From Oceanococcus sp. HetDA_MAG_MS8 (lineage in GTDB: Bacteria; Pseudomonadota; Gammaproteobacteria; Nevskiales; Oceanococcaceae), in assembly GCA_019192445.1 (NCBI GenBank), contig JAHCMK010000005.1, positions 186,001-250,000 on the forward strand: DNA of 64,000 nucleotides, read 5' to 3'. The stretch's first letter is position 1. Every line of letters starts with the position of its first letter. This document shows positions 16,772-44,943 of this stretch, in pieces. Both the position numbers and the translations under genes were made by a program. Below the pieces are notes generated by a model. The model had not been told where the DNA came from and did not search any database. It was given only the letters and a program-made list of their open reading frames with translations.

Positions 16772-16884
16772 TTATCCCTTTTGCCAGACCTGCACGTCCC
16801 TTGGCGGCGGCAGGTATTGCGTGCGGCCCAGGGTCGTAAAGGCTGGTGATTCCTTCAACAAAGATCATTACAGAGGACATCACT

Positions 16885-17628
16885 ATGTCGATCGTATCTG
16901 CGCGGCTGGCTAAGGCCGCACTCGCGATGACCGTCACCGGCCTTTCCAGTGTAGCCACCGTTGCCCCCGCTCAAGAGCTGATGGTTCCAGAGAGCTCTTA
17001 CACGGTGATGCTCAACCAGGATAGCTTCTTCGGTTTTTACCCCTCTTTTAACGGCCTGATGGCGTTGTCCGAGAATATGGACTTCTCCTTCTACGGTATT
17101 TTCTGGACCACGCCTGACTTCGCCAGCAACGCCCCCGGTGGTGCTGACCTCTGGACTGAGTTCGGCGCTGGTGTGAACCTGAAGTACATGGATGGCAAGC
17201 TGAATGTGAAGCCACAACTGGGCATCACCAACGGTGTGCTGCAATCTGGCCCATCCGATGGTGCAGGCAACTTTGGCGACGGTATCGTCCCCAGCTTGAC
17301 CATCAACTACTCGGATGATTACTTCGAACTCGAGTCGTACAACGGTTACTACATCGCCACTGCGGATAGCGACGGTAACGACTTCCTCCACTTGTGGATC
17401 AACGGTGGTTACAAGTTCGCCGATTTCGCATCAGGCGGTCTGCACTATGAGTGGTTAGACATTCCTAGTGCGGATGGCGATACCGTTCTCTACAAGTGGT
17501 TCGGTCCTTACGTGCAGTTCAGCGTGGACTCCGGCTTGTTCGCCCGCTTCACTGCTGGCTCCCAGATCGATGCTGCTGGCGGCGAAGAAGGTGACTTCTA
17601 CAAGCTGAACGTTGGGATGTCCTTCTAA
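16885..17628 (+). CDS. Putative outer-membrane beta-barrel protein, sigma-54/NtrC-controlled
   Basis: 247 aa with a cleavable signal peptide (LAKAALAMTVTGLSSVATVAPAQA-type, cut after about residue 30). The mature part is rich in alternating aromatic strands (NMDFSFYGIFWTTPDF, KWFGPYVQFSVD) and ends in Phe (LNVGMSF), the hallmark of BAM-assembled barrels. It may belong to the uncharacterised DUF6733 group, recalled without search. I start at the ATG at 16885 with AGAGGA upstream; an in-frame start at 16846 would put 13 residues before the signal. The promoter region suggests expression in nitrogen limitation. Possible channel or porin-like role. Confidence 0.8.
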   Translation: MSIVSARLAKAALAMTVTGLSSVATVAPAQELMVPESSYTVMLNQDSFFGFYPSFNGLMALSENMDFSFYGIFWTTPDFASNAPGGADLWTEFGAGVNLKYMDGKLNVKPQLGITNGVLQSGPSDGAGNFGDGIVPSLTINYSDDYFELESYNGYYIATADSDGNDFLHLWINGGYKFADFASGGLHYEWLDIPSADGDTVLYKWFGPYVQFSVDSGLFARFTAGSQIDAAGGEEGDFYKLNVGMSF

Positions 17629-17657: not shown

Positions 17658-17687
17658 CCTGGCCCACCTTCCTCATGGTGGGTCAGG
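17658..17687 (+). terminator. Stem-loop after the outer-membrane protein gene
   Basis: Eleven-bp stem CCTGGCCCACC/GGTGGGTCAGG with one G-U pair and an eight-base loop, 30 bases after the stop. No real T-tract follows, so read-through into the structured RNA downstream is likely. Confidence 0.45.
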
Positions 17688-17690
17688 TTG

Positions 17691-17967
17691 ACTGAACGGT
17701 GGTACCTAGTTCAGCTCGCATCCCAAGTATGCCTAGCCTAGCTTTATCGCTATTTAGGCTTGCTGGAATCCCGTTGCGGGGTGAACTGGTGGCTACCTCA
17801 GTTGTCGCTGGGGATGCACGCCGCTCGCAGATCCTGGTTTAAGGATGTTCGCCTGCGAGTATTGAGGCTGCCCCAGCCGAAGCTGGAAAAGCAGCCTTTA
17901 ATGGCCACCTAGTTCACACGATGCCACCAGGGCCGGATATGTCGTAAGGCATGTCCGGCTTTTTTGT
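17691..17967 (+). ncRNA. Candidate structured RNA of unknown class
   Basis: Dense base pairing with no coding frame. Elements in order are hairpin CTGAAC/GTTCAG (17692-17714), hairpin AGCCTA/TAGGCT (17735-17760) and hairpin CCCG-ttg-CGGG. A long-range 13-bp stem pairs 17781-17793 with 17904-17917. Inside it lie CTCGCAG-ATCCT/AGGAT-CTGCGAG (17824-17859) and a GGCTGC/GCAGCC arm capped by CCAGC-cgaa-GCTGG (17866-17896). GCTGGGG (17807-17813) can instead pair with CCCCAGC (17871-17877). The 10-mer ACCTAGTTCA occurs at 17704 and 17907, and both copies can pair with 17782-17791. A terminator closes the element. It could be a 3'-UTR RNA of the upstream gene or a switch. Confidence 0.5.
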
Positions 17968-17970
17968 TTT
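17931..17970 (+). terminator. Rho-independent terminator of the structured RNA
   Basis: Ten-bp stem (17932-17941 with 17950-17959: GCCGGATATG/CATGTCCGGC, one G-U pair), an eight-base loop and TTTTTTGTTTT. It lies 144 bases before the GAPDH start and would isolate that gene from upstream transcription. Confidence 0.9.
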
Positions 17971-18048
17971 GGGGGCTCGGTGCTTAAGCGGCTACCTCAG
18001 GCTAAAATAGCGGCCTTTTTAGCGCTCCTGCTGGAGTTGCGCAGAGTT

Positions 18049-18074
18049 GTCGCGCACAGTGCGCGACACTTTTT
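18049..18074 (+). terminator. Terminator-like hairpin in the GAPDH leader
   Basis: GTCGCGCAC-a-GTGCGCGAC inverted repeat followed by ACTTTTT, 40 bases before the gene start. It lies downstream of a weak -10 element TAAAAT (18003-18008), so it could attenuate GAPDH transcription. CCTGCT (18026-18031) could pair with AGCAGG (18086-18091) across it. Confidence 0.55.
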
Positions 18075-18114
18075 GATGCAGCCGGAGCAGGGTTAACGAT
18101 GAGGAACGATGCGG

Positions 18115-19566
18115 ATGACGAGTGCAGATCTGGACCTGACAATTGCTCAATGGGATGACGAAGAGCGGGCGGCGGAGGCCATGGTTCCCCTGGTTGGTCA
18201 GCTTTACCGCAATCGCTCGGTAGAAGTCTCGGTATACGGGCAGTTACTGGTCAAGCGGGCGGTGAGTGACATCCTCAAGGCGCATGAATTCTCCCGCCAA
18301 GTAGAAGATGCAGCGATTCATCCCAGTGAGAGCCTAAAAATCGTTGAGCTTTTGGGGCGTATGCCAGTAGAGCGGGCGCATGTGGACGTGGGCAAGTTGG
18401 CGACGCGCTTTCGTAGTGCTGAGTCGGGCCTGACTCTGGAGGCCTTTTTGCAGGCCGAGTTAGCGCCGGCGCTAGAAGCCACCAAAGAAGACGCTCCGCA
18501 TGCCGAACAAAAAGATGTGGTGCTATTCGGCTTCGGTCGTATCGGCCGTATCGTGGCGCGTCTGCTTTGCGATCGCCCCGGCAGCCAACATGGGGCACGG
18601 CTGCGCGCCATCGTAGTCCGCAAAGGCAAGGGCGATGATCTGGAAAAGCGGGCCAGCCTATTGCGCTTCGATTCCGTACATGGACCCTTCAAAGGCATCA
18701 TTGACGTAGATCGTGAAAATCAGGCCATGATCATTAATGGCCAACGGGTGCAGGTGATCTATGCCGATAAACCAGAAGCCGTGGACTACGCAGCTCACGG
18801 TATTTCCGGGGCTGTATTGGTCGATAACACCGGGGCGTGGCGTGACGAGGAAGGCCTCAGTCGGCACCTGAGCTCCGGAGCCATTTCCCAGGTTGTGCTC
18901 ACCGCCCCTGGCAAAGGCGACCTAAAAAATATCGTTCACGGCCTTAATCAGGACATGATTGCCGCCGACGATCAGATCATTTCCGCAGCATCCTGCACCA
19001 CCAACGCCATCGCGCCCGTGCTCAAAGCCATCAATGACAAGTACGGCATTGTGAGCGGCCATATGGAGACGGTGCACTCCTACACGAATGACCAGAACCT
19101 GATTGATAACTATCACGGTGCCAATCGTCGCGGACGCAGTGCACCGCTGAATATGGTGCTGACCGAAACCGGAGCCACCAAGGCGGTCGGCAAGGCATTG
19201 CCGGAACTGGTTGGGAAGTTAACGGGGTCCTCTGTGCGGGTGCCAACGGCAAACGTTTCCTTGGCCGTGTTGTCCTTGAACCTAGAGGGCAGCCCGAGCA
19301 CGGAGGAATTGAACGACTACCTGCGTCATATGGCCATGCACTCAGAACTGCAAAAACAAATTGGCTTCTCCAAGGCGGCTGATGCGGTATCCAGCGACTT
19401 CGTGGGCATGCGTAGCACTGGGGTTGTCGATGGCCCAGCAACGCAAACGGCACCGAACCGCTGCGTGGTGTATGTGTGGTACGACAATGAGTTCGGCTAC
19501 ACCTGTCAGGTGGTGCGGATCCTGCGCCAGCTCACGCACAGCACCTTGCGGGTGTTCCCGAGTTAA
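18115..19566 (+). CDS. gap: Glyceraldehyde-3-phosphate dehydrogenase, long N-terminally extended form
   Basis: 483 aa. About 130 N-terminal residues (AMVPLVGQLYRNRSVEVSVY, VKRAVSDILKAHEF) precede a complete GAPDH domain, as in the long Gap proteins of Pseudomonas. The Rossmann motif is VLFGFGRIGRIVARLL, the catalytic Cys lies in SAASCTTNAIAPVLKAI, and the C-terminal WYDNEFGYTCQVVRI is conserved. It oxidises or, in gluconeogenesis, reduces triose phosphate; cofactor choice cannot be read safely. GAGGA (18101-18105) favours the ATG at 18115 (spacing nine), although the ATG at 18109 is in frame. Leader hairpins suggest regulation. Confidence 0.93.
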   Translation: MTSADLDLTIAQWDDEERAAEAMVPLVGQLYRNRSVEVSVYGQLLVKRAVSDILKAHEFSRQVEDAAIHPSESLKIVELLGRMPVERAHVDVGKLATRFRSAESGLTLEAFLQAELAPALEATKEDAPHAEQKDVVLFGFGRIGRIVARLLCDRPGSQHGARLRAIVVRKGKGDDLEKRASLLRFDSVHGPFKGIIDVDRENQAMIINGQRVQVIYADKPEAVDYAAHGISGAVLVDNTGAWRDEEGLSRHLSSGAISQVVLTAPGKGDLKNIVHGLNQDMIAADDQIISAASCTTNAIAPVLKAINDKYGIVSGHMETVHSYTNDQNLIDNYHGANRRGRSAPLNMVLTETGATKAVGKALPELVGKLTGSSVRVPTANVSLAVLSLNLEGSPSTEELNDYLRHMAMHSELQKQIGFSKAADAVSSDFVGMRSTGVVDGPATQTAPNRCVVYVWYDNEFGYTCQVVRILRQLTHSTLRVFPS

Positions 19567-23953: not shown

Positions 23954-24604
23954 ATGTCCATACTAATTACGGGTGTGGTGCGCAGTTTGGCTGCCACCTA
24001 CCGCTTCCGTTGGGAGGGCCAGCCTGGCGTTCGTGGCCCAGCCGGTCATGAGCACTGTTTGCTGGCGATTTGGCACCAAAACCTATTCGCGGGCATCTTG
24101 GCGCAAACCGGACGACGTCATGTGGTGATCGTGTCTCGCTCCGGTGATGGCAACCCGGTTACGCATTTATGTGAAAGCCTGGGCCATACAGTGGCCCGTG
24201 GGAGCTCGCGCAGTAAGGGGCGTGATAAAGGTGGACAAGCAGCCAAGCAGGCCATGATCGAGGCCCTGCGCTCAGGCTTGCCCGGGGCGGTGACCGTAGA
24301 CGGTCCTCGGGGCCCCATCTATCAGGTGAAACCAGGAATTGTAGATATGGCGCGGCAAACCGGGCTGCCCATCATCCCGTATTTGCCAATGCCCAGACAA
24401 TATTGGAGCTTTAGCAGCTGGGATCGTTTTCGCCTGCCGTATCCGTTTACCCGCATTGATGTGCACTACGGTGAGCCCATTTTCGTGCCGGAGTCGGCCA
24501 CTGATGCGCAGCTTGTGGAGTATCAAGAGCGGGTGCGGGTCGCCTTGCAAGATCTACAGCTCATGGTGAGCCAGAGCCATCAGCCAGCGCCGAGGCGCGC
24601 TTGA
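23954..24604 (+). CDS. Lysophospholipid acyltransferase family protein (DUF374)
   Basis: 216 aa. LAIWHQNLFAG and the HxxxxD-like region, VSRSGDGNPVTHLCESLGH, then AVTVDGPRGPIYQVKPGIVDMARQTG are diagnostic of the DUF374 branch of the LPLAT superfamily, whose members acylate lipid A precursors or lysophospholipids at the inner membrane. The substrate is unknown. I prefer the ATG at 23954 because GGAAGGG precedes it and MSILITGVVRSLAATYRFRW matches typical N-termini. An ATG at 23891 adds 21 residues and lacks a ribosome-binding site. Followed by a bidirectional terminator. Confidence 0.85.
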   Translation: MSILITGVVRSLAATYRFRWEGQPGVRGPAGHEHCLLAIWHQNLFAGILAQTGRRHVVIVSRSGDGNPVTHLCESLGHTVARGSSRSKGRDKGGQAAKQAMIEALRSGLPGAVTVDGPRGPIYQVKPGIVDMARQTGLPIIPYLPMPRQYWSFSSWDRFRLPYPFTRIDVHYGEPIFVPESATDAQLVEYQERVRVALQDLQLMVSQSHQPAPRRA

Positions 24605-24613
24605 TCGCACCAT

Positions 24614-24641
24614 AAAAAAGGGGCCTTGCGGCCCCTTCTTT
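24614..24641. terminator. Bidirectional terminator between convergent genes
   Basis: AAGGGGCC-ttgc-GGCCCCTT hairpin with six A residues on the left and TTCTTT on the right. It serves the acyltransferase gene (plus) and the TIGR02001 gene (minus). Confidence 0.88.
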
Positions 24642-24692
24642 AATCCCACTAGCGCTGATTGGGCAGCGCCAGCGGAAATTCGCATCACCCGA

Positions 24693-25424
24693 TTAAGGGT
24701 TCAGATCGAAATCGACCGAGTAGGACACGACAAATTTGAAGTCGTCGTTGCTCAGCCCAGGGGAGCCCTGAGAACCGGTAGATTCGTCTTCTTCGATATC
24801 GGTTTTGCTGACCATCAACCCGAAGCCATTTTTGGCGATGGTAACGTTGTAGTCCATGTACCCTTCGATGCCGTTGAAGGCTTCTACGAAATCACCGTCG
24901 TGACTACCCACGTGGAAGGAGATTCCGAGACCATTGGCCGTTTCAAAGCCGTAGTCCAGCGACAAGTAGGTGGCTTCGCCAGCTCCAAAGTCTTGGCCGG
25001 GGCCTTCTGCAGCTTCGGTATTCGTCAACACGTAAGCGGTAGCACTCAAGCCACCCATGCCTAGGCTGAAGTACACCTCACCAAAGTCAAAGTTGGTGTC
25101 GTTATCGTAGTTGTAATACAGGTAACCAACATCCCAAGCGACGGTGTCACCGCCGGAGAGGCCGAAGTACAGATCGTGCTCGTAAGAGTAGTTATCGTCG
25201 GCACCGTACTGCACGTTGGAAATCCAGGTGCCAGCGTAGAAGCCTGATTCGTGAGCGTAGTCCATGCCGCCCGAAACAGATGCTTCGTTAGTGGTTTGCG
25301 TGAGGCCGCGCCATACGTAGTTGTTGTTGACCGTTAAGTTACCACTTAACTCGGCCATGGCTGATCCACTGACCGCCACCCCCGCGATCAAAGCTGCTTG
25401 TGCAAAGCGCTTGCTATTCATCAT
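24693..25424 (-). CDS. TIGR02001/Gcw_chp family outer-membrane protein (TorF-like putative porin)
   Basis: 243 aa with a signal peptide ending in GSAMAE. The mature sequence begins LSGNLTVNNNYVWRGLTQTT and contains GGMDYAHESGFYAGTWISNVQ, the family signature, followed by amphipathic aromatic strands. In many proteobacteria relatives lie beside glnK-amtB, which links them to nitrogen metabolism (recalled, not searched). The upstream sigma-54-like promoter and NtrC-like palindrome fit that link. Transport substrate unknown. The ATG at 25424 or the adjacent one at 25421 may be used. Confidence 0.9.
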   Translation of the reverse strand: MMNSKRFAQAALIAGVAVSGSAMAELSGNLTVNNNYVWRGLTQTTNEASVSGGMDYAHESGFYAGTWISNVQYGADDNYSYEHDLYFGLSGGDTVAWDVGYLYYNYDNDTNFDFGEVYFSLGMGGLSATAYVLTNTEAAEGPGQDFGAGEATYLSLDYGFETANGLGISFHVGSHDGDFVEAFNGIEGYMDYNVTIAKNGFGLMVSKTDIEEDESTGSQGSPGLSNDDFKFVVSYSVDFDLNP

Positions 25425-44750: not shown

Positions 44751-44943
44751 GAGTCTGGGGGACCGCCTGTGCCGCTATCCGCATATCCCTTGAGACGAAG
44801 TCTCAAGTGGGTGCCGCCCCGTCACCTTTAGGCTTCCCGCACAAGTGCAGGCATGCTCACCGGCGCGGACGACGACTCCCGGGATACCGTAATTGGCTCA
44901 AGGGGTTCATTTGGAAAGAGCGAACACGGCAGCCACACCCAGA
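44751..44943 (-). ncRNA. ssrS: 6S RNA
   Basis: Regulatory RNA of about 193 nt that binds sigma-70 RNA polymerase in stationary phase. On the minus strand it contains CCCCTTGAGCC, GCCGGTGAGCATGCCT, AAGCCT and a CTTGAGACTTCGTCTCAAGG hairpin, which line up with the E. coli 6S core (GGTGAGCATGC and AAGCCTTA). The ends TCTGGG and CCCAGA pair to close the molecule. Location between zapA and fau is the conserved gammaproteobacterial site. Ends are estimated from the promoter and the closing stem. Confidence 0.88.

Follow-up and report, generated by a model that had tools for sequence, protein, structure and literature searches.

The structures known from the 3' UTRs of bacterial mRNAs, and the small RNAs that derive from them, tend to be short, with light folding and an open seed. 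Bacterial small RNAs of the intrinsically terminated kind are recognized by an intrinsic terminator followed by a U tail, by a discrete 5' end that comes from their own promoter or from processing, and by a discrete, stable transcript. Riboswitches and attenuators are recognized by a terminator that competes with an antiterminator, by an aptamer conserved across genomes with covariation and by a fold that changes when a ligand binds; a tmRNA has a tRNA-like domain and a tag reading frame. Candidate structured noncoding RNAs have also been collected from GC-rich intergenic regions by the GC-IGR pipeline, which also sorts some of them into a low-ranking class that as a rule has fewer than five unique representatives (PMC11109978, PMC8632094, PMC6429828).

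The region analyzed here occupies positions 17691-17970 of a window of 64,000 nucleotides (the whole stretch of DNA that was examined) from Oceanococcus sp. HetDA_MAG_MS8. This intergenic sequence is flanked by the gene of a DUF6733 porin-like protein, which stops at 17628, and by a long-form glyceraldehyde-3-phosphate dehydrogenase (GAPDH) gene, which starts at 18109. A preliminary description had presented it as a densely structured noncoding RNA with a terminator, and every coordinate and sequence element named there was found at its position. The genes and terminators of the locus are the following:

16885-17628, plus strand: gene of a DUF6733 (PF20507) outer-membrane/porin-like protein, Pfam E 5.9e-66, directly 5' of the structured RNA
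17929-17968, plus strand: intrinsic terminator T1 (terminator scan), a 15-bp stem at 17929-17962 and then TTTTTTGTTTT, stem pair probability 1.0
18048-18076, plus strand: terminator-like hairpin T2 in the GAPDH leader (terminator scan), with a perfect 10-nt inverted repeat
18109-19566, plus strand: long-form GAPDH gene (PRK08289 type), NCBIfam NF006139 E 6e-217, the next gene 3'

For the porin reading frame, we picked a start within the listed ORF 16846-17628. No ORF of at least 60 amino acids overlapped 17691-17970 in any frame of either strand, and the GC content of the region was ordinary (0.576 against 0.583). A stable hairpin without a T-tract was also observed at 17658-17687, 30 bases 3' of the porin stop (CCTGGCCCACC/GGTGGGTCAGG); it may be a decayed terminator or a piece of the porin 3' end.

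When the plus strand was folded, its MFE was -130.9 kcal/mol, compared with a shuffle mean of -96.7 (z -6.49), and none of the 200 shuffles equalled it. The minus strand gave a weaker z of -4.42. When the whole window was tiled on both strands (280-nt tiles, 464 tests, 20 shuffles per tile), the region ranked second of the 464 tiles. Taken with the shuffle z, this rank places the structure signal well beyond chance, and the dense noncoding structure was thus confirmed. The top-ranked tile, 24566-24845 on the minus strand, fell to a z of -4.92 when 200 shuffles were used; it consists mainly of coding sequence, together with a strong terminator (about 24615-24640) where two genes converge.

The predicted fold is made up of these elements:

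17692-17714, plus strand: 5' hairpin H1 (arms L1 and R1), pair probability about 0.77
17704-17713, plus strand: R1, ACCTAGTTCA, an arm of H1
17718-17924, plus strand: closing helix P1 (17718-17722 with 17920-17924) around the multibranched body, pair probability 0.77
17723-17766, plus strand: hairpin P2, pair probabilities mostly 0.9-1.0
17770-17780, plus strand: small hairpin P3, pair probability about 0.8
17781-17917, plus strand: long-range helix P4 (arms L2 and R2), the core helix of the preliminary description, pair probability 0.81-0.87
17796-17813, plus strand: hairpin P5, with the CCUCAGU and GCUGGGG strands of a proposed pseudoknot, pair probability about 1
17823-17860, plus strand: hairpin P6, pair probability 0.9-1.0
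17864-17898, plus strand: hairpin P7, with the CCCCAGC strand, pair probability mostly 0.99-1.0

In this prediction, P1 encloses P2, P3 and P4, and at its far end P4 opens into a four-way junction that joins it to P5, P6 and P7. The long-range helix of 13 bp was recovered as P4, in which 17781-17787 pairs with 17911-17917 and 17788-17793 with 17904-17909, with a single bulge at U17910. The proposed pseudoknot (CCUCAGU/AUUGAGG with GCUGGGG/CCCCAGC) is energetically disfavoured relative to the nested hairpins: P5 and P7 together amount to -33.1 kcal/mol, compared with about -28.9 of stacking, as a rough sum before loop penalties, for the two pseudoknot helices.

The 10-mer ACCTAGTTCA does occur twice, at 17704-17713 and at 17907-17916, as had been noted. 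In addition, 17693-17711 aligned to 17782-17803 with three single-base gaps and a score of 26, compared with a maximum of 25 in 1000 shuffles. Judged by this alignment, which exceeds all 1000 shuffles by a narrow margin, H1 is a copy, in shorter form, of the arms of P4. An exact 11-mer, GGCTACCTCAG, was also seen at 17791-17801, inside the RNA, and at 17990-18000, 3' of the terminator; its spacing of 199 is close to the 203 of the ACCTAGTTCA pair. These spacings hinted at a duplication of some 200 bp in tandem, which did not rise above shuffles.

Because each left arm (L1, L2) can pair with either right arm (R1, R2), two global folds are available, which differ by 1.7 kcal/mol or less (MFE). 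In the equilibrium model, the fold with H1 and P4 took up 82% of the predicted ensemble and the exchanged fold 13%. In the simulated growing transcript, R1-L2 dominated from 17792 to 17918 and was then replaced by P4 and P1, and a return of R1-L2 was predicted near 17945, before T1 is complete. However, transient helices were equally extensive in 11 of 100 dinucleotide shuffles, and 72 of the 100 had a transient helix at least as long as the longest one here. The mutually exclusive pairings that had been described therefore exist, but not beyond chance.

The terminator was found as announced, with its stem at 17929-17962 followed by a T-tract, and it is the sole terminator-like site that the scan detected from the porin stop to 17962. 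Its stem had a pair probability of 1.0 in the full RNA and at each length where it was complete. As T1 is fully formed in all cases once it has been transcribed, the fold does not gate termination; the predicted folds held no antiterminator, and T1 formed in both states. The second hairpin, T2, reads TGTCGCGCAC A GTGCGCGACA and then CTTTTT, with its stem at 18048-18068. It puts further separation between the RNA and the GAPDH gene and, lying 33 bases 5' of the start of this gene, it suggests that the GAPDH leader may itself be attenuated.

These data bear directly on the idea that the region is a riboswitch or attenuator acting in cis on the GAPDH gene 3' of it. In favour of this idea, the RNA lies upstream of this gene on the same strand, its two global folds are close in energy, and R1-L2 is predicted to come first and to yield to P4 and P1 after 17904-17924 has been made. 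Against this stand a T1 that forms whichever fold is adopted, the interposed T2, a refolding potential equal to that of shuffles and the 80 named genomes with a related GAPDH (54-63% identical), in none of which such an RNA was found within 4 kb. We consider cis control of GAPDH very improbable. The resemblance to a switching RNA put forward in the preliminary description is thus unsupported, the alternative fold being minor, and we read the alternative pairing (L1R1/L2R2 versus L1R2/R1L2) as a consequence of the local repeat and not as a proven switch.

The RNA had also been set apart from RNase P, tmRNA, SRP and 6S RNA, and this holds. No match at gathering score was obtained in 17691-17970 with Rfam 15, and a permissive search of the same release gave three sub-threshold matches at chance level (E 1.5-2.9), none of them over the body. 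ARAGORN detected neither tRNA nor tmRNA genes anywhere in the window. A 6S RNA gene is located elsewhere in the window, at 44756-44938 on the minus strand (Rfam 88.6 bits).

Relatives were sought by blastn in the genome itself, in 100 relatives and in 369 genomes of the class, which returned the region itself and chance matches of 16-36 bases only. The 100 relatives include the only genome of the same genus, both genomes of the same family and about 80 further genomes of the order. A covariance model built from the single sequence (model R1) found nothing convincing in these relatives, in the 369 class genomes or in 398 genomes of the phylum; since only 5-6 candidates were scored per genome, sensitivity was lower in the class and phylum runs than in the run on the relatives. 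The weak matches were inspected and rejected, their pairing being poor apart from the match in G060. The latter, the best in the relatives (L037 1501-1686), consists of GTTCATCCCCGCGATCGCGGGGAACGC-like repeats and was identified by eye from the alignment as a CRISPR array. Phage and plasmid records and IMG/VR patterns gave chance matches only.

As a control, a covariance model was built by the same procedure, with the one 6S RNA of the window as its sole sequence. It found 6S RNA in 87 of the same 100 relatives, with E 1.2e-36 in the same-genus genome, and this success makes the absence of the present RNA from the order informative. By this comparison, an RNA conserved like 6S would have been detected in the order; as 6S is unusually conserved, a fast-evolving relative could still be missed. 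The best reading of these searches is that the RNA is probably restricted to its species or strain.

Several surrounding genes were likewise not found in the relatives searched. Only the short GAPDH was found in the relatives searched within the order, whose matches to the long enzyme are confined to its core, starting at about residue 130 (36-42%). The DUF6733 protein was found in none of 30 relatives searched, and a DUF1513 protein in none of five. As the long GAPDH, DUF1513 and DUF6733 were not found in the relatives searched, the part of the genome that contains the stretch is lineage-specific. The closest other genome that has a long GAPDH is L040; the gene order read there from the proteins is mfd-gap-nqr, with GAPDH flanked by mfd and an nqr gene, in contrast to its lineage-specific surroundings here. 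Recent acquisition of the stretch is possible, although its GC content is ordinary. The GGT gene of the same-genus genome (71%) sits in an unrelated neighbourhood, so that no empty site could be compared.

Restriction to one species would also fit a nonfunctional remnant at the DNA level, for instance a palindromic mobile element in decay or inverted duplications that arose locally in the spacer. Sequence composed of inverted repeats would fold well, short repeats are clustered here (L1/L2, R1/R2 and GGCTACCTCAG), and the minus strand also folds well, at the z given above. However, the region is present as a single copy in the genome, phage and plasmid records matched it over no more than about 32 bases, and no extended duplication exceeded chance. 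The plus strand moreover folds clearly better than the minus strand, and the terminator is plus-oriented. A remnant of this kind therefore seems rather improbable to us.

We favour, with a probability of roughly 0.45, a structured 3' end of the DUF6733 porin transcript, perhaps the source of a stable small RNA. Transcription would run on from the porin gene past its stop at 17628, meet no terminator before T1 and end there. The resulting 3' untranslated region of about 340 nt would fold into the closed multibranched body (P1-P7), which would stand in the way of 3' exonucleases and could be released by cleavage as a stable small RNA. We infer the co-transcription of porin and RNA, its processing and any downstream target. 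The RNA is oriented on the porin strand and T1 is the first terminator 3' of the porin gene. The strong folding, the lack of an ORF and the formation of T1 in all predicted states also speak for this reading. The sole other DUF6733 porin found (L128), in another family of the class, has a plain T-tract terminator about 90 bases 3' of its stop, as would be seen if 3' UTRs closed by a terminator were the usual arrangement; no such RNA was found in the DUF6733 neighbourhood of G202. On the other side, a body of this size exceeds what protection of the mRNA needs, and the porin transcript could end on its own in a Rho-dependent manner.

The same terminator could alternatively close an independent, species-restricted small RNA gene of about 275 nt with its own promoter, acting in trans or binding a protein. 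The fold is compact, closed and very stable, with P1 and T1 as its bounds; this, the canonical U-tailed terminator and the intergenic position are consistent with such a gene. Yet no sigma-70-like promoter was detected 5' of the RNA, even with relaxed criteria, which speaks weakly for a 3' end of the porin transcript, as this sigma-70-only scan also missed any promoter for GAPDH. No relative was found in the same-genus genome, though the equally built 6S model succeeded there. An independent gene is thus somewhat unlikely. We regard as highly doubtful that the RNA founds a new, very narrowly distributed class (about 275 nt, a four-way core and strand-exchange folds), whether as an independent regulator or as a switch timed during transcription.

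If transcribed, it would exemplify a large and very stable RNA that even the only other available species of its genus does not share, and it would show how fast a structured RNA can appear or vanish. It also calls for caution: as shuffled sequences refold as much, neither a stable predicted fold nor the sight of rival pairings counts in itself as evidence for a switch.

Compared with known systems, the RNA resembles 6S RNA (RF00013) in its size range and in its long closed stem with terminal and internal loops, but differs from it in sequence and branching. With transcription-attenuating riboswitches it shares a multibranched, helix-closed fold beside a terminator and two competing folds; here, however, the terminator does not compete with the fold (T1 probability 1.0 throughout), no homologue was found in which an aptamer would be conserved with covariation, and a second terminator precedes the gene. 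Like the GC-IGR candidates, it is a long structured intergenic region without coding potential; the named motifs have many representatives with covariation, whereas the present RNA has one. With 3'-UTR structures and 3'-UTR-derived small RNAs, it has in common the strand of the upstream gene, the lack of an intervening terminator and the U-tailed intrinsic terminator, and it departs from the known examples by about 230 nt of nearly continuous pairing. It is, in our view, an orphan candidate of a known kind and not a new kind of system.
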